Shown here: one piece after another, positions 31,995 through 49,800 of the stretch | Numbering within the stretch: the stretch's first letter is position 1 | How the letters are laid out: each line of letters begins with the position of its first letter | DNA from: Polytrichum commune | Lineage: Eukaryota; Streptophyta; Polytrichopsida; Polytrichales; Polytrichaceae | Reading direction: 5' to 3' | Assembly (NCBI GenBank): GCA_950295325.1 | Contig: OX485806.1 | Location: 5,828,001-5,892,000 of the forward strand | DNA length: 64,000 bases | Notes under the pieces: model-generated | Told to the model about the DNA's origin: nothing | Seen by the model: the letters and a program-made list of their open reading frames with translations, nothing else | Databases searched by the model: none | Translations under genes and position numbers: made by a program

Positions 31995-34900
31995 TCAGAA
32001 CCAGTTCGAGGTTTCATAATCTCTGAAACCTCGCAAATAATTCTCCATGTTTTCTCTAGTGCGGTTCCACTGAAGATCACCAATCACCTCGTCCGGAGTA
32101 TGTCTCAGTTCCTGAAAAAGAAAAGAAACAATGACTCATGCCACAAATATTTCTCAGTAATTGAAATGTAAGCTCAAATGTTGAAACCCATGCATGCTGC
32201 AAAAGTAGGCGTGTGTAATGTACGAACCGAAGGTATAAGTTTAAAAGAAGTTCCGTCGTCGCGCACAATCAAAGTCTCCTCACTGCGATTCCGATACTTT
32301 CCAGTTTTAACCTCCACCTGGAAAATCCCATATCATAGTTAACTCTGGAATTCCAACATGGGTATAAGAAACTTTGAGCACCTTTTCATTTATTAAACAT
32401 ACACCTGTATGTGAGTGGTATATGGTTAGGTGTAGACCTAAGAATGAAACAACAAAAAGACATGTATTTACAAGAGATTGGACTATGTGCTAAAAAATTA
32501 TTAACCATTCTAGGCTCAACAGTCAACATAATTAGGGGACCTATATGATCATTTGATAAGAAATCCATATGAGCTCTGAAAATTGTGAGGAAAATGGCTA
32601 CTGTCTACTGGCATGATTTGGATTTGTTAACCATCTCGCACTTGTCCTACAAGAAGTCGGTGCAGAACGAAAAGTGTCTGATGAAGGCCCACTTACCCAA
32701 TGTCAAATTGTTTTTATCAGTTTCATAAGATAGAGCAAAAAGATGCCTAATGAAGAACTCCATATTTAAAAAGCTGATCTGATATTGGGTATATGGTGAT
32801 TTGAAGAATACCTTGACATCAGCTCTTCTGATTGACCTTGTGGTGGAGTCAATAACGTAAATCTCTTCAAAATCCAGAACAAAATTTTCATCATCTTCCC
32901 GGAGATTGCGATAGTGCTTGATTAAAAATACCTGTTAACCAATGTCGTCAAAAATTGAGATCAGATCAATTTAAGTAGAAAGGGAGAAAAGGTGTTTCAC
33001 AACCAACCAACATCCTGCACTTGCCAAATCCATCCACCAACAATCCCCTGATTAGATCGTCCCACTTCACTTTGCATTAGAGCTTGGGGCCTAAGGGAAC
33101 AAGGGAACAAGGAAGTTTGAAGGCATGGAAATATCTATATGGAGTCCTACACGACATGCAAATGGCTAACTTTTCATGGTCTACCAGATTTTGCATCAAG
33201 CCCACCTCAAACAGCGGGTCTAGGACAAAACAGACACTTCAAAATCTCACAAACCTTGATTTACTATAACTTATTGTGTAGAAGGGCCCAATGAAGAGAA
33301 TGGCAATGAGATAAGATTTGGTTGAAAGCCCAGTTGTGTATTTCGTTACATTACACTTAAAGTCCTGTGACCACACAAACTTGGACTTCAATTTTCAGAT
33401 GAGTTTCAGGGGCCCTCACAAAATTCAGTCACGGCCATTGGCTGTAATGTAGAGTGGCCCTTAGAGGTGATGAAGAAAAGCAAAGATGAAAGAAAAGTGC
33501 AACCATCTAGACCTTCAAGCACTGGCTTCAAGTGAATTTCCTAGGTGACTTATTTGAGCAAAAAATGCACACCTACCTTCATGGCTTGGTATTCAGTCTT
33601 GTAAAGAGGTGCACGTGGAGTATCAACTGGGGGCTCTGTGACTGAGATATATTCGTAATTGCTCTTCATGCACCGTAGTGGCTGCATAGATTCACAAAAC
33701 ATCTTTTACTTGAAGAAAGCAAACTTTCACAAATTGCAGAGTTTGCTAACAAGAAAATGCAACAGGTGCCAATCCCATGTATGGGAGGCTGACTGCTAGA
33801 CCTACCTGTGAATGGAACCTCAATTTGCAACTTTGAAGTTTTTATTACTTGGAAGCATAAAAAGCAGAACTAATCCCAATTTGGGTTGCTAAAATTTTGG
33901 TGGTTGCAATATGCCTATGCATGAATCAAGCCAGAAAAGAAACTATCATGGCTGTGCCATCTTAGATGTGCACATGTCAAACTTGTAATAGCAAAATTGG
34001 TAATTCACATCTTTCTACTCTTGACCTTTGATACAATGGATTTATGATCAAATACTCAGGAAAATCATAAAAGAGCACTCAAATTTGAGCCACAAAGGGT
34101 GTAATGAAATGGGCAACAAACGTACCTTCTTGGGCATGTTGCCAACTACTTTTGGGATTGCATAGGTGTCTGTATCAGGATTAGTTACATACATCTGTAC
34201 ACTCACAACACACAGGTGTTTCTTTCAGCATGACCTGGAAACGTTCTCTTACAAAATTTAGGTGTGCAAATAAAGACGTTAGGAACATTCCAGGACTGGT
34301 CGTTACTTGACCTTGGCCTTGACCTTGATGTTAATGTTTCTCAGCAATGAAGAAAAATCACAAGTTTGACAACATCTATGATTTCACAAGAATGACTTGA
34401 AAGTCAGTTGATTACAGACCAATGTCACTGAACTACACATTATTGCGGACATACATCACCCACAAATATGGAAATTAAGATATACCATCTGCAAAATTGA
34501 TCTTGCAGTAGGTTCTTCACCCTTGCCAAAAATGTCTAACCAGTATTTTTGTTGTTGTAAGTTCTTATTTACAAAATGGTTTTGGAGGCACACTGTTGCA
34601 TGATTGAGTAATTTACTGCAGCTTGAATGCCATATTTCCCTACTCCTACAAATTGGAGCCAGGGAACAGGCGGTCCCACATAGTAGGTACTGAAAAAGGA
34701 CACAAAAAACATGCTAGTATTTTTTATTCTCCAGAGACTGGTTGAATGGGTAGAATTAGAAGGGCAAAAGCAATAGTTAGACTTAGCAATAGTCAATCAA
34801 GAGGGCAATGTCAATCAAGAGTGTATTTTTTAGGAAAGAAATGCTCTCAAAAGACAATGAGTCCCCAGATGTTTGGACAAGAACCGTGCATAGAATACAT

Positions 34901-36738
34901 ACGGCTGGACATTGATGCATATATTTTGGAAATTGGAGCAGGGCCACATGCACAAAGCAATCACAAGTTACAAGAAAGGGACAGAAAAAATTTACCTCTC
35001 TAAAATCGAAGACATCATCATCTTGATCGGGGACTCTTCTGATGAAGAAATCACAGTCATACAAAGTGAGTTTATGGAACTCGTCTTCGTCAATTTTGTA
35101 GTCCACAATCCTTTCCTCCTCTACACCTTCAGTAGATATGAAGGATTCACTTTCTTGAACACCATACTCCCCCATGGGCATATCATATTCGGTTTCATAG
35201 TCGCGTAGGTCACCTTCATCATCATCCTCCTCATTTTCTCGATCCATCTCATAGTCCACGGCGTCTTCCACCTCAAAATCATCCTCGGCTCCTTGTATTT
35301 CTCTCCCTCGCCTTTGTTTTCGAGGTTTTAACCAACTTGGACTTTGAGTTAATGATCTAGGGAACGAAATCCTTGATGACGTAGCCGCCTGCTCTGACAT
35401 CAAATAAATAAGAAACAACCTAATAATAAAATGATATAGTACCACTGACATGCGGTGCTGTGTCTACAAAACCACTCTGCATTTCCCTGTGACCTTTGAA
35501 CCTATCCCTGGGTCCAAAACCCAGAACCTAAACCCTAAACCCTTTTTTGCATCTAGTCTCCACTATGACGCACGCAAGTTAAACCGTCAACCTCCCTCAA
35601 ATAGCATAAAAGACAACCAACAAAACCCTTCGAACTGTTTGTACCAACCAAATGCTCGCCACAGAATAAATTCAGAAGAATCTTAACCTTGGAAGAGGAT
35701 TGAGGCTTCACAAGCAGAATTTCCTTTACCAAAACCCAGAACCCTAAGCCCTAAACCCTTCTTTGATCTAGTCTTCGCTATGACACAAGCAAATTAAACC
35801 CTTACCCTCCCTCAAATAGCATAAAATGTGAACAACAAAATCTTCCATGATGCTTGTACCAACCATAAGCTCACCACAATAAAGATTCAGAAGAAGCCAA
35901 AAACCTTCAAAGAGAATTGAGGCTTTACAAGAATTGGCCAGAATTTCATTTGCCAAAACCCTAAACCCTTCTTTGAATCTAGTCTCTACTATGCCACAAG
36001 CAAGTTAAACCCTCACCCTCCCCGAAACAAATATAAAGCGCGACCAACGAAATCTTCCTAGCTGCTTGCACCAACAAAATGCTCGCCACAATAGTAATTC
36101 AGAAGAATCCTAACCCTGGAAGAGGATTGAGGCCTCACAAAAATTGACCAGAATTTCCTTTGCCAAAACCATAAACCCTTCTTTGCATTTACTCTCCACT
36201 ATGACACAAGCAAAGTTAAGCCTCACCCTCCCTCAAACAGGATAAAGTACGACCAACAAAATCTTCCTAACCACTTGTACTAACCAAATGCTCGCCACAA
36301 TAAAAATTCAGAAATAACCAAACCCTGGAAGAGGGTTCAGGGTTCACAAGAATTGACCAAATTTTCTTTTGCCAAAAAACTTAACCCTCCTTCAAATCTA
36401 CTCTTCTGGTCAAATAGAGTTCACCACACCTTATCTGGAAGTAGCGTGAGTTAATGGGATGCAAGAATGCAGACCTCACTTTACAATTGCCAAAAAATGC
36501 CAAATATTCAAAAAAATTCGCAACATTTCAGAACCTGTGCGAAGAGGCGCATGCCGCGGCGAGTTGCTAGAATGGCAGCTGCTCGGCCATGCTCTGGCCC
36601 CGGAGCTGACAACTTAGAAACAATTTTTACTTTGGCTGCAATTGGGCCCGCGCTCCTTCTCCTGCCGCTGAAGCTGCTGGAGGCTGCGAATTGACAGCTG
36701 CTAGTGTGAGCGCAGGAGGCGATGCTCGCCATAGCCAT
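31995..36738 (-). CDS. PAP8: Plastid RNA polymerase-associated protein PAP8 (pTAC6), seven exons
   Basis: PAP8/pTAC6 is an essential component of the plastid-encoded RNA polymerase complex, needed for chloroplast biogenesis, and in Arabidopsis it is also found in the nucleus. Exons (minus strand): 36738-36535, 35388-34996, 34194-34126, 33681-33577, 32931-32812, 32317-32228 and 32111-31995. All introns are phase 0 and GT-AG, giving 365 codons; Arabidopsis pTAC6 is about 330 aa. Residues 1-68 are rich in Ser, Ala and Arg with few acids, a typical transit peptide starting MAMAS. A basic cluster KPRKQRRGR lies at 89-97 and an acidic stretch at about 99-137. The conserved family core then follows: LYDCDFFIRRVPD (177-189), DFREMYV across exons 2-3, PLYKTE, HYRNLRE, LDFEEIYVID, LIVRDDGTSF and the C-terminus SNWF. 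The exon 1 link rests on splice sites and phase. An alternative start MSEQ at 35400 would lack a transit peptide. Confidence 0.93.
32390..32640. repeat. Dispersed repeat family D, copy inside PAP8 intron 5
   Basis: This segment shares motif order with 22430-22700 ('aaaaagacatgt', 'agagattggac', 'ttaaccattctagg', 'atccatatgagct', 'tttggatttg'). It makes up about half of the 494-bp intron between exons 5 and 6. Confidence 0.5.
35460..36410. repeat. Tandem repeat, ~210-bp unit, in PAP8 intron 1
   Basis: Anchors cctccctcaa or its variants lie at 35591, 35806, 36016 and 36226 (periods 215, 210, 210), with a partial fifth unit to about 36410. Each unit contains 'accaac..aatgctcgccacaa', 'attcagaa', 'ggaagag.attgagg', 'gaattgaccagaatt' and 'gccaaaaccctaaaccctt'. 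It fills almost the whole of the 1146-bp first intron. The unit carries plant telomere-like AAACCCT motifs, doubled as cctaaaccctaaaccc at about 35529. Confidence 0.85.
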
Positions 36739-36805
36739 GGCTCCCCAGCCTTCTCGTCAGTCTCTCTTCTCTTCTCTGTTCTTCTCTCTCCCTCTCCCTC
36801 ACTAA
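36739..36805 (-). promoter_or_regulatory. PAP8 5'UTR / truncated proximal promoter
   Basis: Only 67 bp separate the PAP8 start codon from the end of a transposon at 36806. On the gene's strand this stretch is GA-rich (gagggagagggagagagaag), like a pyrimidine/purine-tract plant leader. No TATA box lies inside it, so transcription probably starts in or very near the transposon. Confidence 0.55.
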
Positions 36806-37019
36806 GGCCCACTTCACACACGAGCCAAGAGCCGTGACCATGAAAGTGTGAGAGCCCAAAAGAAAGTGTCCAGAGGCCGTCCCAAATCACTTCCAAAAAC
36901 ATGTAGTGTGGTCACGGGCCCTCAAGTGTAGTGTGAAGTTATATGTGAACGGCCCTCAACTATATGCTATTTCAATGAATTTTTATTTAAGCTGGGTCTT
37001 CACACATTATAAAATAAAA

Positions 37020-37490
37020 CAAGAAAATAGTAGAACCGTGAGGCTCTGTCCTCTTATGAAAGAATACAATTGTAGTTGTACACTTTGCTCATGCCAGTCC
37101 ATGGCTATTTGTTGCACCTATAATCAACTATAGTCAATTAGATTTTTTTCAATACATTCTAGGAAATAATTATAGTTAACTAGATATATATAACTATAAT
37201 TAACTACATTCTTTGGCAGGTTCAATCACGATCAACTATAGTTACGAAAGGCAACTAGTTAACTACTAGTTGAATTAGTTGGTTAGTTGCCCAAGGTATG
37301 CAAGCTTGCATCATCCATGTTAGATCAACTTGACTAAAAATAGCAGGGACAAGTAACGTGCAAGTGTGAACATAAAGTAGTTAGGAATTTTGCTCTTAGA
37401 ACATAGAAGTTGATGCATAGTCTCTGTCCTACAGACAACGCCAATAAATTAACAGTTGTGAGATTTCGATGTGCTATGGTCTATCAAATT
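37020..37490. repeat. AT-rich dispersed repeat inserted in the MITE
   Basis: It interrupts the MITE and shares its tail ('agtaacgtgcaagtgtgaac', 'gatgcatagtctctg') with 3290-3361. It has many 'aactatagtt'-type motifs, like 3030-3290. Boundaries are approximate and come from where the alignment with the intact MITE copy stops and resumes. Confidence 0.6.
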
Positions 37491-37859
37491 TGTATTAGGT
37501 CTACCTCCAAGAGATGGTTTTTGGAAACAATCTAAGTGACCATGAATATGATCCATTTGATGCCATGTAGCAATCCATGCAGACTTTACATTCATCTTGT
37601 GTTCACTTACTCCGTTGGTCCCTCAAGCATAGTGTGAAGCGAACTTGGATTGGCTCTGCCTTCCCAACCAATAAGGGCCGGTTTACACTACGGTGGAGAA
37701 GTCAACCGGTCATGAAAAAAAGGGCGTTTCTCAATTGTGATTGGTCGAAAATGCAACTCTTGACCGGTGGGTGTTTACATTAGGTGAAGAAAACAATGGT
37801 GGTGAACTTTTCTCATGGATGATAAAATGACATGGCCGCCTACATGGCGGCACTTTTTG

Positions 37860-37943
37860 GAGTTGGGCTTCTCCGGAGGAGGAGTTTCTTGTCCAGCCTC
37901 AAGAGGCCGGACAAGAAACTCCTCCTCCGGAGAAGCCCAACTC
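37860..37943. repeat. 84-bp near-perfect palindrome
   Basis: Forty of 41 positions pair (the one mismatch is 37895 against 37908), around a two-base AA centre at 37901-37902. The arm begins GAGTTGGGCTTCTCCGGAGG. It is GC-rich in AT-rich surroundings. It lies 185 bp from the left end of the Harbinger-like element. Confidence 0.95.
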
Positions 37944-38226
37944 AATAAAAATTTAATTTTCAAAAACAGACCTTGACCGTAGATTTCAGATCTGATTTTT
38001 TTCAAAACCTAAGGTGTTGGCAAGCTTCTCTCTCTCTCTCTCTCTCTACTTCTTGAAAATCTGGTACTCTGATACACCAAATATGCTATTCCGGGCAGCC
38101 CGGTTAAAAATAAAAAAGAAAAATTACAATACAAAAGGCCGAAGGGTTCGGGGAAAGCAAGTATGTTCCTCTCCCACAGTGCTAGTCTGACAGCAGTTCC
38201 TCTACCACAGAGTTAGCAGTCCAGTA

Positions 38227-39426
38227 CAGTCTAACCTTGATAATATCACACCATCCGTTTCACCATAAAGTGTGATATAAACAAGGTGTGACATGTTTGA
38301 TAATGTCACATTTTGAAGATTTGTGCATAATGTGATATTATCAAAAAAAAAAAGGTAGAAAATCAAAATGAAATTACAATGTAAAAAAACAAAAAAAACA
38401 AACACAAGACTTCAATGTTTTTGAATGTAAAATATAATTCAAAATTGTGAATAACAACATGAGCACATCACAATGTGTCATTGAGATCAGCCAATCACTA
38501 GCTTCCAATGTAGCAACAACAACAAAAACAACAACACAACGAAGAACACCTGCACTGCATGAAGAAACACAAGCCTATGATAGAAAGTGTGCATTTAAAT
38601 TCCAAATGAACAATGGTTCATTATATACAAGTGAGCTCGACCATGAGCTTGACTAACCTACCTAGGAGACTGTTTCTACTTATGAGCTTGACTAACCTAC
38701 CTAGAAGATTGTTTCTACTTATGAGCTTGACTAACCTACCTAGAAGATTGTTTCTACTTATGAGCTTGACTAACTAATCTAGAAGATTGTTCCTAATTGA
38801 ATGCCCACTTAGGATGAGCGGCTAACACTTATGATCTTACTAGATTCTCCTATGCGACTATTGACTATAGAAACAGTGAAGACCGTGCCACATATCTTGA
38901 GATTTCTACATTGCAAACCAATTGAACTAATTTAGCTTAAGTCGACACTACTCTGTACCAGCTCAGCTAAACCGTAGAACTTAACATCCTAAATTACTTC
39001 ACACAAGCTGAAACCCTCAAAGACACATAGGTGAACACATGTGACGGAAGGTGGGGTGCATAGAGGCCAAGAAGTCTTGGCAGCGCCGTCAAAGACAACA
39101 CCTTTGAGTGCCGTGTATAGACAGCACCGTTCAGGGTTGGTGCACAGAGGCGGCTCATGACCCTTTGAATAACATTGCATTTATCACAGGGGTGGCTCAT
39201 GACCCTTTTGGCTACTACAATATGTCCATCCAACCATCACATACAATCCATCCATATTTGATATTATCACATTTACACTACGGATTTTGGAAAAAAATAG
39301 TGACATTAACAAGGGTGATAGGGATAATAACGAGGGAGTTTTACACTAAGAAAATCGGTTTCAAACTTTTAGGTGACAATATCAAGGTGTCCCATTAACA
39401 AGGGTGACATTATCAAGGTTAGACTG
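38227..39426. mobile_element. Pogo-like element nested in the Harbinger-like element
   Basis: The left end CAGTCTAACCTTGATAATAT and the right end (reverse complement CAGTCTAACCTTGATAATGT) are nearly identical, followed by TCAC. Both are flanked by TA (38225-38226 and 39427-39428). The terminal motif 'ttgataat(a/g)tcac' recurs inside near each end, as in the element at 11310-12301. It is 1200 bp with no transposase fragment that I can recognise. It contains a 39-bp tandem repeat (38645-38800). Confidence 0.85.
38645..38800. repeat. 39-bp tandem repeat, four copies
   Basis: Units beginning gagcttgactaacctaccta start at 38645, 38684, 38723 and 38762, exactly 39 bp apart. The last copy is more diverged. 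Confidence 0.9.
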
Positions 39427-39995
39427 TAAACAGAGACAGGATATGGGGACTTCCCGTCTGTAGCTGCTTATCGAAGTACTGAGATTGTTCGAGTGAAGGA
39501 TAGCTTGATTTCTGATCAGACTTAGCAGGAGTACTGAAGTGAAGCTACTGTATCATCCACAGTAAGCACAGTATCGGTAGCAACTACTGATTTACTCCGA
39601 GGGAACAGCAGAAGACAGGAATTCGTGAGAAGTGGTTGAGTAACGGATTGAATTGTCCATTCTGATCATTAAAAGAACCTCATAGGTTCAAGAATTCACA
39701 GCAAGATGAGCACACCCAACTCATCCAAGGACGAGCTCAAGGTGGCAATTATGTTTTGTTTTTTCTAAAAACAAATCATGGTCAAAATGGTTCGGTCACA
39801 TATGAATGCTTGATATATATTTGAGATTTTACATATGTGAAATAATTCATATGGATATTTTAATATTTCCATGCTATATAAGTAGATAAAAAAGATATTT
39901 ACCTATTCCAAGGATGAAGTATAGCCTTGTTGACATCGATAACAAGTAAGAGGTCTTGTGACACCTGTTGTACGCTCTACTAACACTTCTTGTAA

Positions 39996-40268
39996 TTGTG
40001 GGGAGCATGGGCACAGGTGAGGACCTCTTCTACAAGTGCTATGCACCATTCGAAGAATTGTCTACTCATGAATAATTCCCCAAGAAAATTGTTCTTGAAA
40101 TATGGAATACTTACTACGAGTATATCTTTCTTGGAAAAAACAGTATCTACTATATACATTTTGACTGATAAAATACCCGATATAAGGGGATCTGAATTCT
40201 TTGTTATAGCTCAAAAACGCTACGCAGATATTGTGGATAATTCTCTGCTGAAATGCAATTTCCAATAA
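39996..40268 (+). pseudogene. Possible captured exon fragment inside the Harbinger-like element
   Basis: An open frame of 90 codons, with no stop but no clear ATG context, ends ...GSEFFVIAQKRYADIVDNSLLKCNFQ and then a stop. The last 30 codons look protein-like in composition, unlike the rest of this element. I do not recognise the family. It could be a piece of a host gene carried by the transposon, or chance. Confidence 0.25.
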
Positions 40269-41155
40269 AACAGACAGGACAATATATGATCTGCTATTTT
40301 TCTTTTATAGTATACGGTTGATGGACGTCTGAGACAAGTCCTCACCGATAAAGCAAATAACCAGATGAGAGTAAGGATGGGGGGTAGAGGAAAAAGGTAC
40401 TTAGGATTTCCCCTAAGTCCTCATATGGTGACCACCTGACTGACTGAAGTCAGAAGTTATGACTACTAATAAATTGGTCAAGTCTTTCTCATACTTTCAA
40501 ATGACTGTATTCAGTAGGCACAAAGTGACAATAACAAATGTCTATTAAAGTGTGCAGACATGCTAATCAATGTGTAGCAAGTCTGAGAGGAAACTAAAGA
40601 TGCAAAGGATAACACATAGATCTGTGCAACTATTGCCGATCTACAAATAGTTCAGAAAAATATCTGTGATAGAATTTTTACACACATACTTGGTACAAGA
40701 ATGTGGTAACAAGCTGCTATAGTCAGGAACGAAATTACGGATTTAATGCTTTTATAAAAGCTTCTTACGACAAATGGCTGGATTCTGACACTTGAAAATG
40801 AAGTAACTACCATTTGAGTCTAGGGGTCACCTGTGCTCGCAGAACAACTTCTGTTGATCAAGGTACAGATTAAAACATCACAAACCTCGGTAGTGACCAA
40901 GAGTGTTACCAAGGAAGGACAGAATGACGTCCGGCTCTAAAAGAATGTAAGAAATGAAGACATAAAGTACCAAGGGATTATCAGGACCCTATTCAAAATG
41001 GGATGTATGTTGTCATTACATAACCTGACTCTACAAGAGGGATGAAAGATCCTACTCTAACAAAGAGAATAATCATGACAAGATTGGTCAGCTCTCTCTC
41101 TCTCTCTGCTGTAGTAGCTCCTTAGCGATTTTTTTTTGTGCAATTTTTTTTCGCA

Positions 41156-41518
41156 ATGGCTGGTTACTCACAATTTCAGTTTGGTAGTAGCCAAGATGAG
41201 GACGACCTCATTGGTAGTGAGAATTATTTTGAGCCCTCAAGGCAATTTCCAGGAAGTGCTCTTAGGGCTTATGTTCAACACCCTTCTCCACTTGCAAGGA
41301 ATTTGAGGGAAGAGTTTGAAGGAGGAAGAGAGATAGAGGAAGAGAATGATGTAGAAATTGTGGAACGGCCGATTGAGACCACAAGGAAGAGAGGTCCAAT
41401 AGCAAAGAAGAAAGCTCCGGCCAAGAGGAGAGCCAAGAGGAGAAACGATAAAATACTTCAAAACCATAAAGATCATAAGAGAGCACAAAATCTCTCTTCT
41501 TCGATTATCCATGATTGA
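41156..41518 (+). CDS. Transposon-encoded basic protein, possible Harbinger ORF1
   Basis: The ATG at 41156 is preceded by a pyrimidine-rich leader (CT microsatellite at 41092-41107, then a T-run). The product is 120 aa: an N-terminus MAGYSQFQFGSSQDEDDLIG, an acidic stretch (REIEEENDVEIVE), and a strongly basic segment (KRGPIAKKKAPAKRRAKRRN) that would serve as a nuclear signal or DNA-binding arm. PIF/Harbinger elements usually carry a second, Myb/SANT-like DNA-binding protein besides the transposase. This ORF could be the start of such a gene, truncated or with further exons, but no SANT fold is visible. It lies 514 bp from the right end. A lineage-specific host gene is the alternative. Confidence 0.4.
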   Translation: MAGYSQFQFGSSQDEDDLIGSENYFEPSRQFPGSALRAYVQHPSPLARNLREEFEGGREIEEENDVEIVERPIETTRKRGPIAKKKAPAKRRAKRRNDKILQNHKDHKRAQNLSSSIIHD

Positions 41519-42786
41519 AGATCAAAGATAAGAAGAGAGAAATTGATGAGGATGATTAAGAGGAGAGCATGTCTTAAATAATACCAAAGAGTAGTGCTTG
41601 TCCAATGTGTATGGGTTTTCCCCTCTTCATTCTTAAACACCCAAGGAGACATTTATTTCCTACATGGGCCAAACTTGACAATTGGCAATTTGGCAATTTT
41701 CATTATCTTTTGAATAAAATTGAACATTATATTACACAATTCTTATGAACACAATTCTTGTTGAAATCTTTTGATACAATGTGAATGTAGAGAATTATGG
41801 TTTTTTATCACAAAAAATCTTCACCATTAGGTGAACTTCTCTTCACCGGTGGACTTCTCTAGTGGACTTCTCCTCTAGGTGTTTAGACTTCAACCGGTCA
41901 AGACTCCTTAAGAAATATTTTATTGCCTTTAATTCTTCTCCGGCACATCCACCATTTGCCTCATATAACCATGTCTTGGCCAAGCATTCTTGACCGACCG
42001 GAGGCCTTCTCCACCGTAGTGTAAACCGACCCTAAGAGTGCTTGAAGTGCAATGGTCACATGCCCTCAATGTCGTGTGTGGAGTGGCCCTAAGACTCACT
42101 CCATGCAAGTTTTCTTTCTTGCTAGTGTGTGGTGTTACGAATATAAAAGGTATGCAAGTGTTATTTTGGTTACTTTTCTTAGTTGAACACCTTTATTTGA
42201 TTGGTGTGTCGTTAGGTGAGGATCCAAAAACGAACACCATAAAGACACATGTTTAAAAGAGATTGGACTACGTTTTTAATGTTTATTCATTGCTCCACTC
42301 AATTGCGAGGACATATGTATTCATTTGAGGAATAAATAATAAACATGCACTTATGATAATCGTAACCAAAGTAGGGGAGCTCTGATTTACAATATGTTTT
42401 TTGTTGATACTTCACAGTAGATTTGCTAATGCAACATGAAGTTTGACATGTAGATCTAGTGAATGGGTAAAAGATATAGAAAAACGAACATACCGTATGG
42501 GTGAACTAGACTTTTTTTTAGGTTTCTACTTATGTAGAGGGTTGATTACAAAATGAAAATTACATGGCATATTAGCAAATTCGAATGAGGACATGAGAAT
42601 TGATCTAGCTTTTTGGGAATCGGTGTGAAAAGATGGATTCTTGATCTAATGAATGTCATAGATGATTTACACTAGTTTCCTTTTGGATATATACATGGTG
42701 GTATGAATTTCTAGAGGCCGGGCCAATTTGTTGTACGTGTAAGAGGCTTGAAATCCTCACTTGTGATTAGTCAAAATGTTGAAATC

Positions 42787-43242: not shown

Positions 43243-43437
43243 TGTTGCAAATCTCCTATCGGTCACAATTCATGATAGGTGCACTCCCCTTATATTGTGA
43301 TTGTTCAAGTTTGATGTCCAGACTAGAGGGAGAAAAGAAGATGCGATTATGATAGGTGTATAAACATTATTTGCACCTTTATGTGTACCACATCATACAA
43401 TCAATGCAACTATCAAGTAAAGTAGATGAGCTTACTA

Positions 43438-44266
43438 CAATCCACCCTCTATAAATGTTACACCTATAAGTGTTCACCCTCTCTAAATGTTAACTTTCTT
43501 CTACTCCCCACATATTGCACACTATAAATGTTAAACATGTTAACTGTTAACAAAATGATACTTCCTTCTTTGTAAATTTTACTCTATAAATGTCAACGAA
43601 TGAAATACAACCATAATATGAATGATAAAAACTACACATCCAGTTACATTCCTCTCTCTCTCATCATGCGTTAGACTAAGTTTGGCTACTAATAGTTCTA
43701 GTGATGGAAGTTTAAGAATGGAGGCACAAGAGTATGTGCAATACGAATTAAACTTTGATTTGAACAATCCATATGAGGTCACCGAAGAGGATGTATGGGA
43801 TGTTTTAGGCTCTATTGGTGGGACTTCTAATGTCTAAGATGATGATTGTGAGGGAGAGGAGTGAAAGGTGGAACCCATTCCATCTTATAGTGACTTGCAA
43901 TCTAGTTTTGGTACCATTAGAAGGTACATGGAATCACGTTCATGTGATGTGTCCAAGTAAGTGGGTTTGTTGGTGCAGATTGAGAAATATTTGCAAGTTG
44001 TGCATGCAGATGAATCTCACCAAAGAACCATTGATTCATACTTCACCCGTGATTTGTAAACTTGATATTGAATAAAGTTTTGATTGGGTTTGCAATTTTA
44101 TGAATGGTATTCTCTCACAAGGACTCTTCACAATTGCTTATATTTATAAATGTTAAGATTTGTATATTGCTCAAAATAGTAATTTTATAATTGTTAATTG
44201 TTAACACCTCTATAAATGTTAACTTTGATCCACTCCCGAGGGTTAACATTTATAGAGGGTAGACTG
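43438..44266 (+). mobile_element. Pogo/Tigger-like element, 829 bp
   Basis: The left end CAATCCACCCTCTATAAATG and the right end (reverse complement CAGTCTACCCTCTATAAATG) match with two differences. Both are flanked by TA (43436-43437 and 44267-44268). The motif 'ctctataaatgtta' is repeated inside near both ends, the same architecture as the elements at 11310 and 38227. It carries decayed coding sequence ending QRTIDSYFTRDL. Confidence 0.85.
43696..44059 (+). pseudogene. Decayed C-terminal transposase fragment (pogo/Tigger type)
   Basis: A first frame gives an acidic stretch (LNNPYEVTEEDVWDVLG) and stops at 43837. A shifted frame then ends with IEKYLQVVHADESHQRTIDSYF and a stop at 44057-44059. 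The end pattern Q-R-T-I-D-S-Y-F parallels QRTIDSFF of the element at 11310-12301. At least one frameshift or stop separates the parts, and the catalytic core is absent. Confidence 0.55.
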
Positions 44267-44425
44267 TACAGATTGGCCTCTTCTCCCATGGAAAAAAATC
44301 GTGAAAAAATCATCCTTGTCGCACAAAGAATCTTGTATGAAATTAATATAACAACAACAGTGTCAAGGTGCCAAAAATGGCAGTGTATGACAAACTTCCA
44401 AAAAGCATACCCTACCCTACCCTTA

Positions 44426-44924
44426 GGGCCACTTCACACATGAGACTGAGAGCCCATGTCCAGTACACTTCAAGCACTCTCATTGGTGGGAAAGGCAGAG
44501 CCCGTCCAAGTTCACTTTGCACTATGCTTGAGGGACCAACGGAGTATGTGAATGAAAGATGGATGTAAAGTCTACATGGATTCCAACATGGCATCGAATG
44601 GATAGTGTTTCATGGTCACTTGGATTATTTTCAAAAACCACCTTTTGGAGGTAGGTCTAACACAAAACTGGGAGACCAAGGCACTCCAAACACTCAAAAC
44701 CGTTGATTTATTCTATTTTATCGTGGGTGAGGACCCACATGAATTAAAATTCATCGAAATAGCATTTGATTGAGGACCCGGTCACATATGACTTCACACT
44801 ACACTTGAGGATCCGTGACCACACTACATGATTTCGGAGGTGTGTTGGGATGGCCTTTGGACACTTTCTTTTGGGCTCTCACCATTTCATGGTCACAGCT
44901 CTTGGCTCGTGTGTGAAGCGGCCC
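44426..44924. mobile_element. Intact copy of the PIF/Harbinger-like MITE
   Basis: This 499-bp element has left end GGGCCACTTCACACATGAG and right end (reverse complement) GGGCCGCTTCACACACGAG, flanked by TTA on both sides (44423-44425 and 44925-44927). It is an inverted, uninterrupted paralogue of the MITE at 36806-42089. At the position where that copy carries the 4.36-kb insertion, this copy reads continuously (gagtgcttga against ttccccacc on the other side). Confidence 0.88.
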
Positions 44925-45000
44925 TTAGTTCCAACATTTGCTGGTCGGATAATTTTTGTTTTGGAACATGGATATCCAACACCTCATTTTTAGGGTTTTA

Positions 45001-46700
45001 GGACGTCATCACTTAAAGCTCCAGGTTGTTCACCTCTTCCTATTCTCAAGCTTCTTATCCAATTACGGGGGACGCTAAGTACCCCCCCACGAACTAATAG
45101 GGATTCCATATTCGGGCGGGGGCAGCCCTCCCACGAAATTTCTGGCCCCGCCCGGATTTTTTCCAAACCCGCCCGAAAATAGCTGCCCGCCCCGCCCGAA
45201 AACGAAAAAAACATTGCTCTTCCATTCTTCAAGGCCGCTTGACTACAAATCCCATATTGAGTGCACTTCACCTTCAAGGTCTCAAATCCAATATATATGT
45301 GCACTTCCACCTAGTAAATAAGGCATTAAATGGGATTTCATTCCGGAAGTGAAACCATCAACCAAGAATGCAATTAACTTGGAAGTCAAAAAATTAGAAA
45401 ATCCTCATCAACATTGAGGTTATAATTTTTATGACTTACCATTTGAAATTGTCTTCGTCATTCTTAAATGACACTTAAATTTAGTGTGCTGATGTGGTAT
45501 GTATATTTTATAATATTTTAGATAATTCTGGCTACTTTCAAGAATATTCATACGCACTTATTTATAAAATATACTTAATGGAACTAATTAATAAATTATT
45601 TTAATTACCGGATTTAATTGGAGTTAATTCCATTAATTAAATTGTCATCCAATGCATAAAACATTGCTTCTATAAATTCATCAATAATTGGTGGAAGTGT
45701 CCTACAATAATACCAATTCAATGGTGCTCGATCTTTGATTCAAAATAATTTTCCTTCTAAGGATATGTAGGAAGAAAAATGAATAGGGCTTGCATTTGAC
45801 ATTAGTAAGCATTGACCTTCAATGAGTACTGCATGCACATTTACATGTTCAACTCCTTAATGCGCTTCCCACATTGGTGGATAGGATTGTCAAGAGATGT
45901 GCAACACATGTGAGAGGGAGAAGACTAGGGTTTCATGATTAGGGTTTAGGGTTTAGAACAAATCCTCACATGGGAAATCTACAGTATCATAACACATACA
46001 CAATCCATCTTCACATGTCAACCTCCCACTTGCCTTCCCAGCCAATGTGACAAATTCATGCACCAACAATTCAACAAGTGACAGAAGAAGAAGAAGAAGA
46101 AGACACTCCACATATTGACATGTGGCATAATGCGAGGGTGTGGGTTAGCTTCTTTAGTGGTTTGCATTAATGTCAAAATCCGTGAAGGGAGATGAATGCG
46201 ACAATAAGGAGTGGGATTTGAACAAAGAACATCCATTCCCTAGGGTTTTGGGATATTAGAGAGTGAATGACATTACAAAGGTCGATGTTATGGAGTTTAG
46301 GGTGTGTTTGTTCACTTATTCACGCATCCGAGAAGTTGCCATAGTGACATAAACTAACATTTGACACTAACCCTTATATTTAAACTGATAGACACTTGCC
46401 TGTTTATGCAATTCAGTCATTACTTGAAAAGATTCTTCCAGGTGACCAAAAAACTCAAAATTACATGGGAGGTCTTTCGGGCCGACCCTCACCTGTGTGA
46501 ATGCCTGAACCAAAAGGGCTCCCACTAATAATGCTTAAGAATGTCTTCTGTCCACGTGGCACTGTGCCGCCAGATAGGCACTTTAGGGTAATGATGTGGC
46601 GGAGTAAAAGTGTGAGGTGGCAGAGCCCAGCACAAGAAACCTCTTCTCTCTCATACAAGTGATCATCTCATCTGATCTCATCAAGTGGCTCCCTTGAGCA
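45001..46700. other. Intergenic upstream of the oxidoreductase gene
   Basis: A GC-rich patch lies at 45062-45205 with repeated CCCGCCCGAAAA-type text. An interstitial telomere-like run (tttagggtttaggg type) lies at about 45931-45957, and an (AAG)n run at 46083-46102. A fragment of MITE family M1 lies at about 46305-46385. No gene recognised. Confidence 0.5.
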
Positions 46701-46898: not shown

Positions 46899-49800
46899 AT
46901 GGCGGAGGAAGTAGTAGACATTGTGATCCTGGGAGCCTCAGGGTTTACAGGAAAGTATGTCCTGCGCGAGCTTCTCAAGTTTGTCAACCCTCCCAATGCC
47001 CCTCCTCGCCGAATCGCCATAGCCGGCCGCTCCAAGAAAAAATTGGCCGCTGCCTTGACATGGGCATCATCATCATCCGGGGACCAAAACTTGTCTATGA
47101 ATACTAATAATAATATTAACATCCCTATTTATGAAGCCGATGTGAACAGCGTGCAATCCCTCATCTCTCTGTGCAAGAAGACCAAGGTGCTGGTGAGCTG
47201 TGTGGGCCCTTATAGAAAATATGGGGAGCCTGTTGTCCAAGCTTGTGTGGAGGCTGGGGTGGATTACCTTGACATCACTGGGGAACCCGAGTTCATGGAG
47301 AAGATGGAGCATCTCTACCACGAGAAAGCTAAGCAATCAGGTTGGTTTGTATGTAATCAATACATTTACCTTATTTTTTTCCCATATATGCATCAGATCC
47401 AAAGAGTGCACAAGGCGGATTGAGTTGAAGAGGGTTTGATCTTTTTTTCTTAATCTTTTTTTAATTTATTTAAAATATTTAACGTATGTGTGTGAGAATG
47501 TTGTGAACAAGCCATGCAACCATGTGTTGGAGCGTGTGAGGATGTCGTGAACAAGCCATGCAACCATGTGCTGGACCGTGTGAGGATGTTGTGAACAAAC
47601 ACAAGGGTGATGGGTTTCATAACCAAATTTCGCTTTAAACTGGAGATGGCATGCACATCTGCCGTCTTTTGCTTTAATTGATGTTTCGGCATGGAAATGT
47701 CATGGCTTCAGAGATTGAACATATAAGCCTGTTTTGTTTCCATCAGAGCATAATTGTGCCTTTTTATGTGTGGGAAAAGCGATCATGTGTTGGACCGTGT
47801 GAGAATGTTGCCATCAAAAACAAGGATGATGGGTTTTATACCCGAATTTCAATGTAAACTGGAGATGACATCTACATCTGCCATCTCTTGCTTAGTTGAT
47901 GGTACATTGTAATGTGGCTTCGGAGACTGAACATAGATGGGTTTCTTTCCATTAGTGCAGAAGTCTGCCTAATGATGAAGAAGGTGCTCTGCTTTTTATG
48001 TGTGGGAAAAGCAACCATATGTGCCGTGTGAGAATGTTGCAAACAAAAGCAAGGGTGGGTTTCATACCCGAATTTAACTGTCAACTGGAAATGGCATCTA
48101 CATCTGCTATCTCTTGCTTAGTTGATGGTTTGGCATTGAACTATGGCTTCAGAGATTGAACATATAGCTTATTTCGTTTCCATTATTGCAGAAGTTTGCC
48201 TAATGACCAAGAGAGTGCTCTGCTTTTGGGCCATGTGGGAATGTTGTGAACAAAAACAAGGTTACTGGGTTATATACCCGAAATTCACTGTAAACTGGTG
48301 CTGACACTTACAACTGCCATCTCTTGCTTTAGATGATGGTTTGGCTTCAGATATTGAAAATGTAGCTCGTTGTGTTTCCGTTAGTGCATAAATCTGCTTA
48401 TTGAAGAAGCAGGAGAAGAAGGTGCTCTGTTTATATGTCCTGTTAGACTTGTTAAGCCCTTCATGGCTGATGGACGTCACATGTGGTAGATTTGTATCTA
48501 GTAATTTATGCCACACAACATCTGATCAGAGTTTCAGATTTATGTCAATGTTTTGACATCCAACTAAGAGGGGAGCTTGTCGAAGATTGCCCTCCTAGCA
48601 AAAATAGGATGCTTTCTTGTATAAATATACTTCTGGCTTTTGTTTTCCTACCTCAGATTTTTGTCTTGTCTCTCCTGATTTCCTTGTGTCAAAGAAAATT
48701 GAGATCTATTTCATTCTAGTTTTTATCGATTCCTTTTGATTGGTTTGAATTGGGTATGTCACTCTGAAAGCTCTAGATAAACTCTCTCTGTCTTATTTTG
48801 TGATTTACTGGTTACGCATATATGTAAGCATTTTTTGAACCTTGAGACTTACAAGGGTTTTTTTGTTCACTGATGAGTGTCCAGTATTATTAAGCTCCAA
48901 TTTTTTTGGGTAGCAGTCCTGAACATCGTCTATTCTGCCCAAACTTGAGTATTGAGGAGATTGCCGAAGTTATTTGGCAGCAAGCAATTAGATTACTCCT
49001 ACACACACACACACACACAGACTTGGCTGTGGTATCAACAGTCAGTGGTTGAAATGAAGTTATTTTAAAGCCTTGTGCAGATATAGCCTTGATTTTTATG
49101 AGCCTATATGTTTTTAACAGCAGATTTATGCACTAATGGAAGCAAGACAACCTATATGCTCAATAAGTGAAGCCAGATTTCAATGAACCATCAACTAAGC
49201 AAGAGATGGCAGATGTGGATGCCTTCTCCAGTTTAAAGTGAACTTCAGATACAAAACATATCACCCTTGTTTTCGTTTGCAATGTTCTCACTCAGTCCAG
49301 ACTCCAAACGGTTGTGAACAAGAACAATATATATAGCCCTGTGCACATATAGCCTTGATTTTAATCCTCTCTAGTGGGACTATATCATCAATCACTTGTT
49401 CTCTTGGACTATTTTAGATTAGATTTGAGTAAAAATGATGACATGTTTTTCCATACAGGGTCTCTGGTGGTTAGTGCGTGCGGATACGACTCGATCCCAG
49501 CGGAATTTGGTGTCATTCACAACACCCAGCAATGGGATCCTCCCTCTGTCCCTAACAGTGTAGACTCTTACCTTGTCCTTGAAACTTCTGGTAAGAGCAT
49601 CAAAGGCAATTTAGGGACTTGGGAATCTGCAGTTCTTGGTGTTGCGAACCAGGCGGACCTTCAGAAATTGCGCAAATCAAGGCCTCGCCGGGCGCGTGCT
49701 CAGGTTTGTATTTCCATCAATGCCTGTACATCATTTCACTCAACCTTTCTTGAAACTAGAGCACATATAATGAAGATTTTACAGTTTTTAAAATATTTTT

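Follow-up and report, generated by a model that had tools for sequence, protein, structure and literature searches.

What drives transcription of a gene whose start codon is separated by only 67 bp from a large nest of transposons? The question is raised by the PAP8/pTAC6 gene of Polytrichum commune, which lies on the minus strand of a 64,000-nucleotide stretch of contig OX485806.1 (positions 5,828,001 to 5,892,000; hereafter the window). PAP8 is needed for chloroplast transcription in Arabidopsis. Homozygous Arabidopsis pap mutants are described as albino and without progeny in the relevant section of PMC8954402. The nest extends from 67 bp upstream of the PAP8 ATG to 42089, is bounded by TAA duplications at 36803-36805 and 42090-42092, and contains four repeats: a miniature inverted-repeat transposable element (MITE), E1; a further repeat within it, E2; and two transposons, E3 and E4, inserted in E1 and E3, respectively (Table 1). 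In the explanation favored here, to which we assign a probability of about one half, E1 is an old neighbor of PAP8, the gene would use a TATA-less promoter derived in part from the MITE, and E3 and E4 would have arrived later and at a distance.

The outer inverted repeats of the nest (36806-36823 and 42072-42089) are 86% complementary over 22 nt, flanking bases included. The searched genome comprises 407.8 Mb, nearly all of it in seven large contigs of 42-78 Mb; 40 candidates were scored in each repeat search, and the resulting counts are lower bounds that include the window copy. The gene-proximal part of E1 is repetitive genome-wide, with 40 of 40 scored candidates matching (1871 candidates) and the best family matches 88-91% identical. 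Both ends were present in 34 of 39 fetched copies, the other five being dropped for lack of both ends, and these full-length copies measure 484-509 bp, giving a family length of approximately 500 bp. Identical 3-bp flanks were found in 23 of the 34, and 20 of these flanks are TAA or TTA; the PAP8 copy is flanked by TAA on both sides. A TWA target duplication marks the PIF/Harbinger superfamily. By its TWA 3-bp duplication, terminal inverted repeats and uniform short length, E1 is a PIF/Harbinger-like MITE. The family resembles Tourist-like (PIF/Harbinger) MITEs in its length of about 500 bp, TWA duplications, GGGCC inverted-repeat ends and high copy number, but differs in having a long subfamily with an additional, central repeat. 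MITEs near plant genes are common. A likely second E1 copy lies in the same intergenic region at 44421-44928, and is 89% identical to C3:17512172-17512680, which overlaps one of the fetched E1 copies (L084).

The extra repeat of the long subfamily is E2, which also occurs outside E1. Besides PAP8, the full E1-E2 arrangement was present at 13 of 21 loci examined (20 of 36 junction-pattern hits plus locus L003; 14 further hits were left out, and 8 of the 21 rows were dropped), and 8 of the 13 have identical 3-bp flanks. Because the arrangement recurs at 13 other places, E2 most likely came in together with E1, and a separate insertion of E2 at the PAP8 locus was rejected as the simplest reading. 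The preliminary description had counted at least four insertions; four repeats are indeed present, but only three units (E1 with E2, E3, and E4) need have inserted here. Among the copies printed, the middle of the long subfamily exists in at least two versions, one common to PAP8 and L003, the other to L107, L109, L111, L112, and L113.

The inner inverted repeats (37674-37711 and 41996-42033) are 89% complementary and flanked by TAA, and with this duplication and these repeats E3 is a candidate PIF/Harbinger-like element. Its left end matched 40 of 40 scored candidates over the full 177 bp (798 candidates), and these first 177 bp are 99% identical to 39 other copies. The one E3 frame scanned, a 120-residue open reading frame at 41156-41515, had no Pfam match at E 0.1. 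Near the left end of E3, at 37854-37949, there is a hairpin with 47-bp arms that are 94% complementary and a 2-nt loop. E4 begins TACAGTCTAACC... and ends ...GGTTAGACTGTA, with a TA duplication and inverted repeats (38225-38249 and 39404-39428) that are 96% complementary; we take it to be a Tc1/mariner-like element. Over its full 1204 bp, 25 of 40 scored candidates matched (899 candidates), and 24 other full-length copies share 98-100% identity with E4. Its interior (38643-38795) contains 3.9 repeats of a 39-bp unit.

By position, E3 entered E1 later and E4 then entered E3. The end of E3 and E4 as a whole are 98-100% identical to dozens of copies, and both are therefore recent. E1 is clearly older at PAP8 than either, because it differs from the long-subfamily (composite) consensus at 17 of 203 proximal sites whereas E3 and E4 have near-identical copies. 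By coordinates, E3 starts 936 bp upstream of the PAP8 ATG; its entry at approximately 0.94 kb therefore found the leader, E1, and E2 already in place. The TAA duplications, inverted repeats, and genome copies bear out the preliminary description of a nest at 36739-42092, 67 bp upstream of the start codon, but not its proposal that the promoter was displaced by the nest in its full 5.3 kb, as the recent growth of 4.36 kb took place about 0.94 kb out. The differing ages of the blocks in the nest also led us to reject one recent displacement of 5.3 kb.

The identity of the gene below 36739 is given by its match to solved PAP8 chains (E 2e-71 to 8qma_K, in two stretches covering chain residues 27-267 and 295-334), and exon 2 alone reaches E 2.4e-23. 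The protein is rather distant from the PAP8 chains in the PDB. The gene reads as seven GT-AG-bounded exons whose frame stays open between the ATG at 36738 and a TGA that ends at 31995, in agreement with the earlier account of an intact coding sequence and splice sites. Exon 1 had no match to PDB PAP8 chains, and is placed by its open frame, which begins MAMASIASCAHTSSCQFAASSS and probably encodes a transit peptide, and by its donor site. Borders of exons 3-7 were read by eye, and exon 6 was absent from every protein query. A probe of exon 2 found one match in the 407.8-Mb genome (4 candidates scored), and a probe of exons 3-5 and 7 found four, all at the window locus (5 candidates scored); no second PAP8 locus was thus found, a result limited by gaps and unavailable stretches in the genome, which leave the absence of a second copy unproven. 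Intron 1 contains a tandem array (35514-36392) of about four units of 209-210 bp with the telo-box-like sequence AAACCCTAAACCC in the units, and this array matched only itself in the genome search.

Table 1. Features of the PAP8 locus and its upstream nest (window coordinates)
Feature	Position	Strand	Description
PAP8 exons 3-7	34194-34126, 33681-33577, 32931-32812, 32317-32228, 32111-31995	-	All GT-AG and in frame; stop TGA
PAP8 exon 2	34996-35388	-	Three adjacent acceptors; first base 35391 or 35388 keeps the frame
PAP8 exon 1	36535-36738	-	68 codons; ATG 36738-36736; donor CAG/GTTCTG; open frame and splice site
Leader	36739-36805	-	67 bp, GA-rich on the sense strand; ends in TAA duplication 36803-36805
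E1, gene-proximal part	36806-37016		PIF/Harbinger-like MITE end; GCCCA cores at 36807 and 36854; minus-strand ATGs at 36841, 36902, and 37007
E2	37017-37449		High-copy repeat of about 430 bp inside the long E1 subfamily; borders approximate
E1, middle part	37450-37670		Reaches the E3 insertion site
E3	37674-42033		4.36 kb; 38-bp inverted repeats; TAA duplications 37671-37673 and 42034-42036
E4	38225-39428		1204 bp, inside E3; inverted repeats with TA at both ends
E1, far end	42037-42089		53 bp, followed by TAA duplication 42090-42092
Pre-insertion flank	42093-42146		About 50 bp without repeat match; two of 39 other matches start a few bases inside

In the favored explanation, a long-subfamily E1 carrying E2 would have used as its target a TAA lying 64 bp before the PAP8 ATG, and the copied TAA brings the distance to 67 bp. 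Since no other PAP8 was found and the window copy is intact, the gene has most likely been expressed while MITE DNA made up the region directly upstream. The distances involved are small: a core promoter reaching 40 bp upstream avoids the MITE only if the start site lies less than 27 nt from the ATG. The sense strand of 36739-37016 contains no TATAWA, and a single TATAAT at 37011. Two of the MITE ATGs, 36841 (-103) and 36902 (-164), open out-of-frame reading frames of 46 and 91 codons that extend past the PAP8 ATG, and leaders starting upstream of 36841 would therefore probably be poorly translated; the third, at 37007, is soon followed by a stop, as judged by eye. The two GCCCA/TGGGC (site II) cores fall within 36739-36865, and two or more such cores are found in 2.2% of 127-bp stretches of the window. 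Geometry, the out-of-frame MITE ATGs, and the site II motifs together suggest a start within approximately 100 bp of the ATG. A TATA-less promoter would then place the transcription start either within the GA-rich leader or within the MITE's final 35 bp, and the MITE end would provide the region upstream of the start, with its two site II motifs. E3 and E4, arriving much later and about 0.94 kb out, would be expected to have little effect.

In its treatment of promoters, PMC3212954 uses the name site II for GCCCA and reports it from the promoters of genes for chloroplast, mitochondrial, and cytosolic ribosomal proteins; in Arabidopsis, GAAGAA is shown near this element in the promoters of ribosomal protein genes. 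A GAAGAA motif is present on the sense strand of the PAP8 leader at 36779. The comparison is an analogy, because PAP8 is not a ribosomal protein gene. Among sampled family members, the GGCCCA box of the E1 terminal repeat was found in only 3 of 39 and in none of 34, and 42093-42450 has no site II core. The anatomy of the nest, its duplications, repeat families, and relative ages, and the one PAP8 locus are observed; the position of the start site, the use of the motifs, and expression of the gene are inferred. Transposon DNA probably forms part of the PAP8 promoter, and the co-option of the MITE considered in the preliminary description is plausible, with indirect support; the narrower proposal, that the terminal part of the old MITE is the core promoter and brought site II boxes missing from the pre-insertion flank, is tentative, at somewhat less than even odds.

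The pattern of sequence decay in E1 offers a possible footprint of methylation. At CpG sites (cells that were neither CpG nor its decay products being set aside), the PAP8 copy keeps 5 of 5 in the proximal part versus 32 of 59 in 13 other long copies, and 5 of 13 in the distal part versus 140 of 207 in the same composites. Against the 500-bp consensus, 5 of 5 proximal and 3 of 10 distal sites are kept (Fisher p 0.026; a gapped site and an odd one excluded). All 34 copies picked by their distal half, a choice that itself favors distal retention, show a smaller proximal-distal difference than PAP8. In one of the two copy sets compared in this way, 4 of 38 rows were dropped. C-to-T or G-to-A changes affect 6 of 99 proximal and 21 of 135 distal positions (one-sided p 0.019). 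A comparable case is found at L003:1436-2410, an E1-E2 composite lying 667 bp before the start codon of a gene for an RRM/RS-rich protein (named by eye), where the gene-facing end has decayed less (9 of 138 versus 19 of 100); this single case fits the idea. Taken as proof of an unmethylated promoter, CpG decay was rejected, given five sites, selection-biased copy sets, and the greater asymmetry of L107. The results fit an unmethylated gene-side end of E1 weakly.

Several observations weigh against a promoter role for the MITE. The upstream ATG at 36841 has T at -3. By general rules this is a weak start-codon context, and leaky scanning is therefore possible. The motif matches are not proof of function. 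The CpG signal consists of five proximal sites, the sixth being gapped, and two of 34 copies picked for proximal likeness exceed PAP8 in asymmetry. In a comparison of PAP8 with 12 of the 13 other copies (L117 dropped), the proximal/distal decay ratio of L107 is 0.32 versus 0.39 for PAP8, which ranks second of 13. Proximal divergence in PAP8 is 8.4%, inside the 3.9-12.3% range of the 13 other copies, and therefore no purifying selection is visible. There is no clear CpG island at the E1 end, the observed/expected ratio at 36801-37000 being 0.48 versus a window median of 0.42, in a profile of 34.8-48 kb.

One alternative makes the MITE a neutral spacer: the host core promoter would be compressed into the 67-bp leader, and regulatory input would come from within the gene, for instance from the telo-box array of intron 1. 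The GAAGAA at 36779 lies in that leader and is a motif shown near site II in the portion of PMC3212954 concerned, and the array of about four 209-bp telo-box-like units is specific to this gene. This arrangement requires, however, either that the 5' leader stay below about 27 nt or that the core promoter have no upstream part, and telo-boxes are reported, in the same portion of PMC3212954, from promoters near the start codon and not from those of chloroplast ribosomal protein genes. On balance, it is rather unlikely.

A distinctly improbable alternative keeps the original promoter beyond 42.09 kb and places the nest inside an intron of the 5' untranslated region. An AG does occur at the E1 border (TTAG/TGAGG), and splicing would remove the MITE ATGs from the leader, but the stretch before this AG is neither pyrimidine- nor AU-rich (by eye, with no splice-site scoring). 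The sequence past the nest is also unpromising: about 50 bp of unmatched flank are followed by an old repeat at approximately 42147-42444 (matches 73-78% identical, 40 of 4329 candidates scored), site II cores are absent from 42093-42450, and no conserved original promoter is discernible there. It is very improbable that PAP8 is weakly expressed or silent in this accession, for example because the young E3 and E4 insertions would be polymorphic and bring silencing. Both families look recently active, with many near-identical copies; against this, the frame and splice sites are intact, no second locus was found, and E3 lies about 0.94 kb upstream; Arabidopsis complementation fusions ran on a 1-kb PAP8 promoter, as set out in a section of PMC8954402. 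The earlier suggestion of a silent gene with an active second copy is disfavored, as the genome search, within the limits set by gaps and unavailable stretches, gave no second locus.

Further repeats occupy parts of 42.7-45.6 kb; those at 43433-44269 and 45061-45643 have best copies 97-99% identical, and hence were recently amplified. A divergent saccharopine-dehydrogenase-like gene (Pfam PF03435, E 1.6e-17) has its start at 46899-47420, head to head with PAP8 across approximately 10 kb that consist largely of repeats.

MITEs in promoters are an already known phenomenon. The rice element mPing is a PIF/Harbinger MITE. Like E1 at PAP8, mPing can lie close upstream of a gene, where it can alter expression; its insertions are de novo, with mostly stress-related changes and none under normal conditions, according to PMC3782648. 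In contrast, E1 at PAP8 is old and would belong to the basic promoter. Arabidopsis PAP8/pTAC6 belongs to the same protein family and is represented by a 1-kb promoter in the section of PMC8954402 cited above, whereas in Polytrichum the upstream region is transposon from -68 outward. A nest of this kind can mislead, in that its large recent insertions are remote from the gene and the only one close enough to matter is small and old. If the favored explanation is true, a nuclear-encoded gene of the chloroplast transcription machinery would run on transposon-derived DNA.

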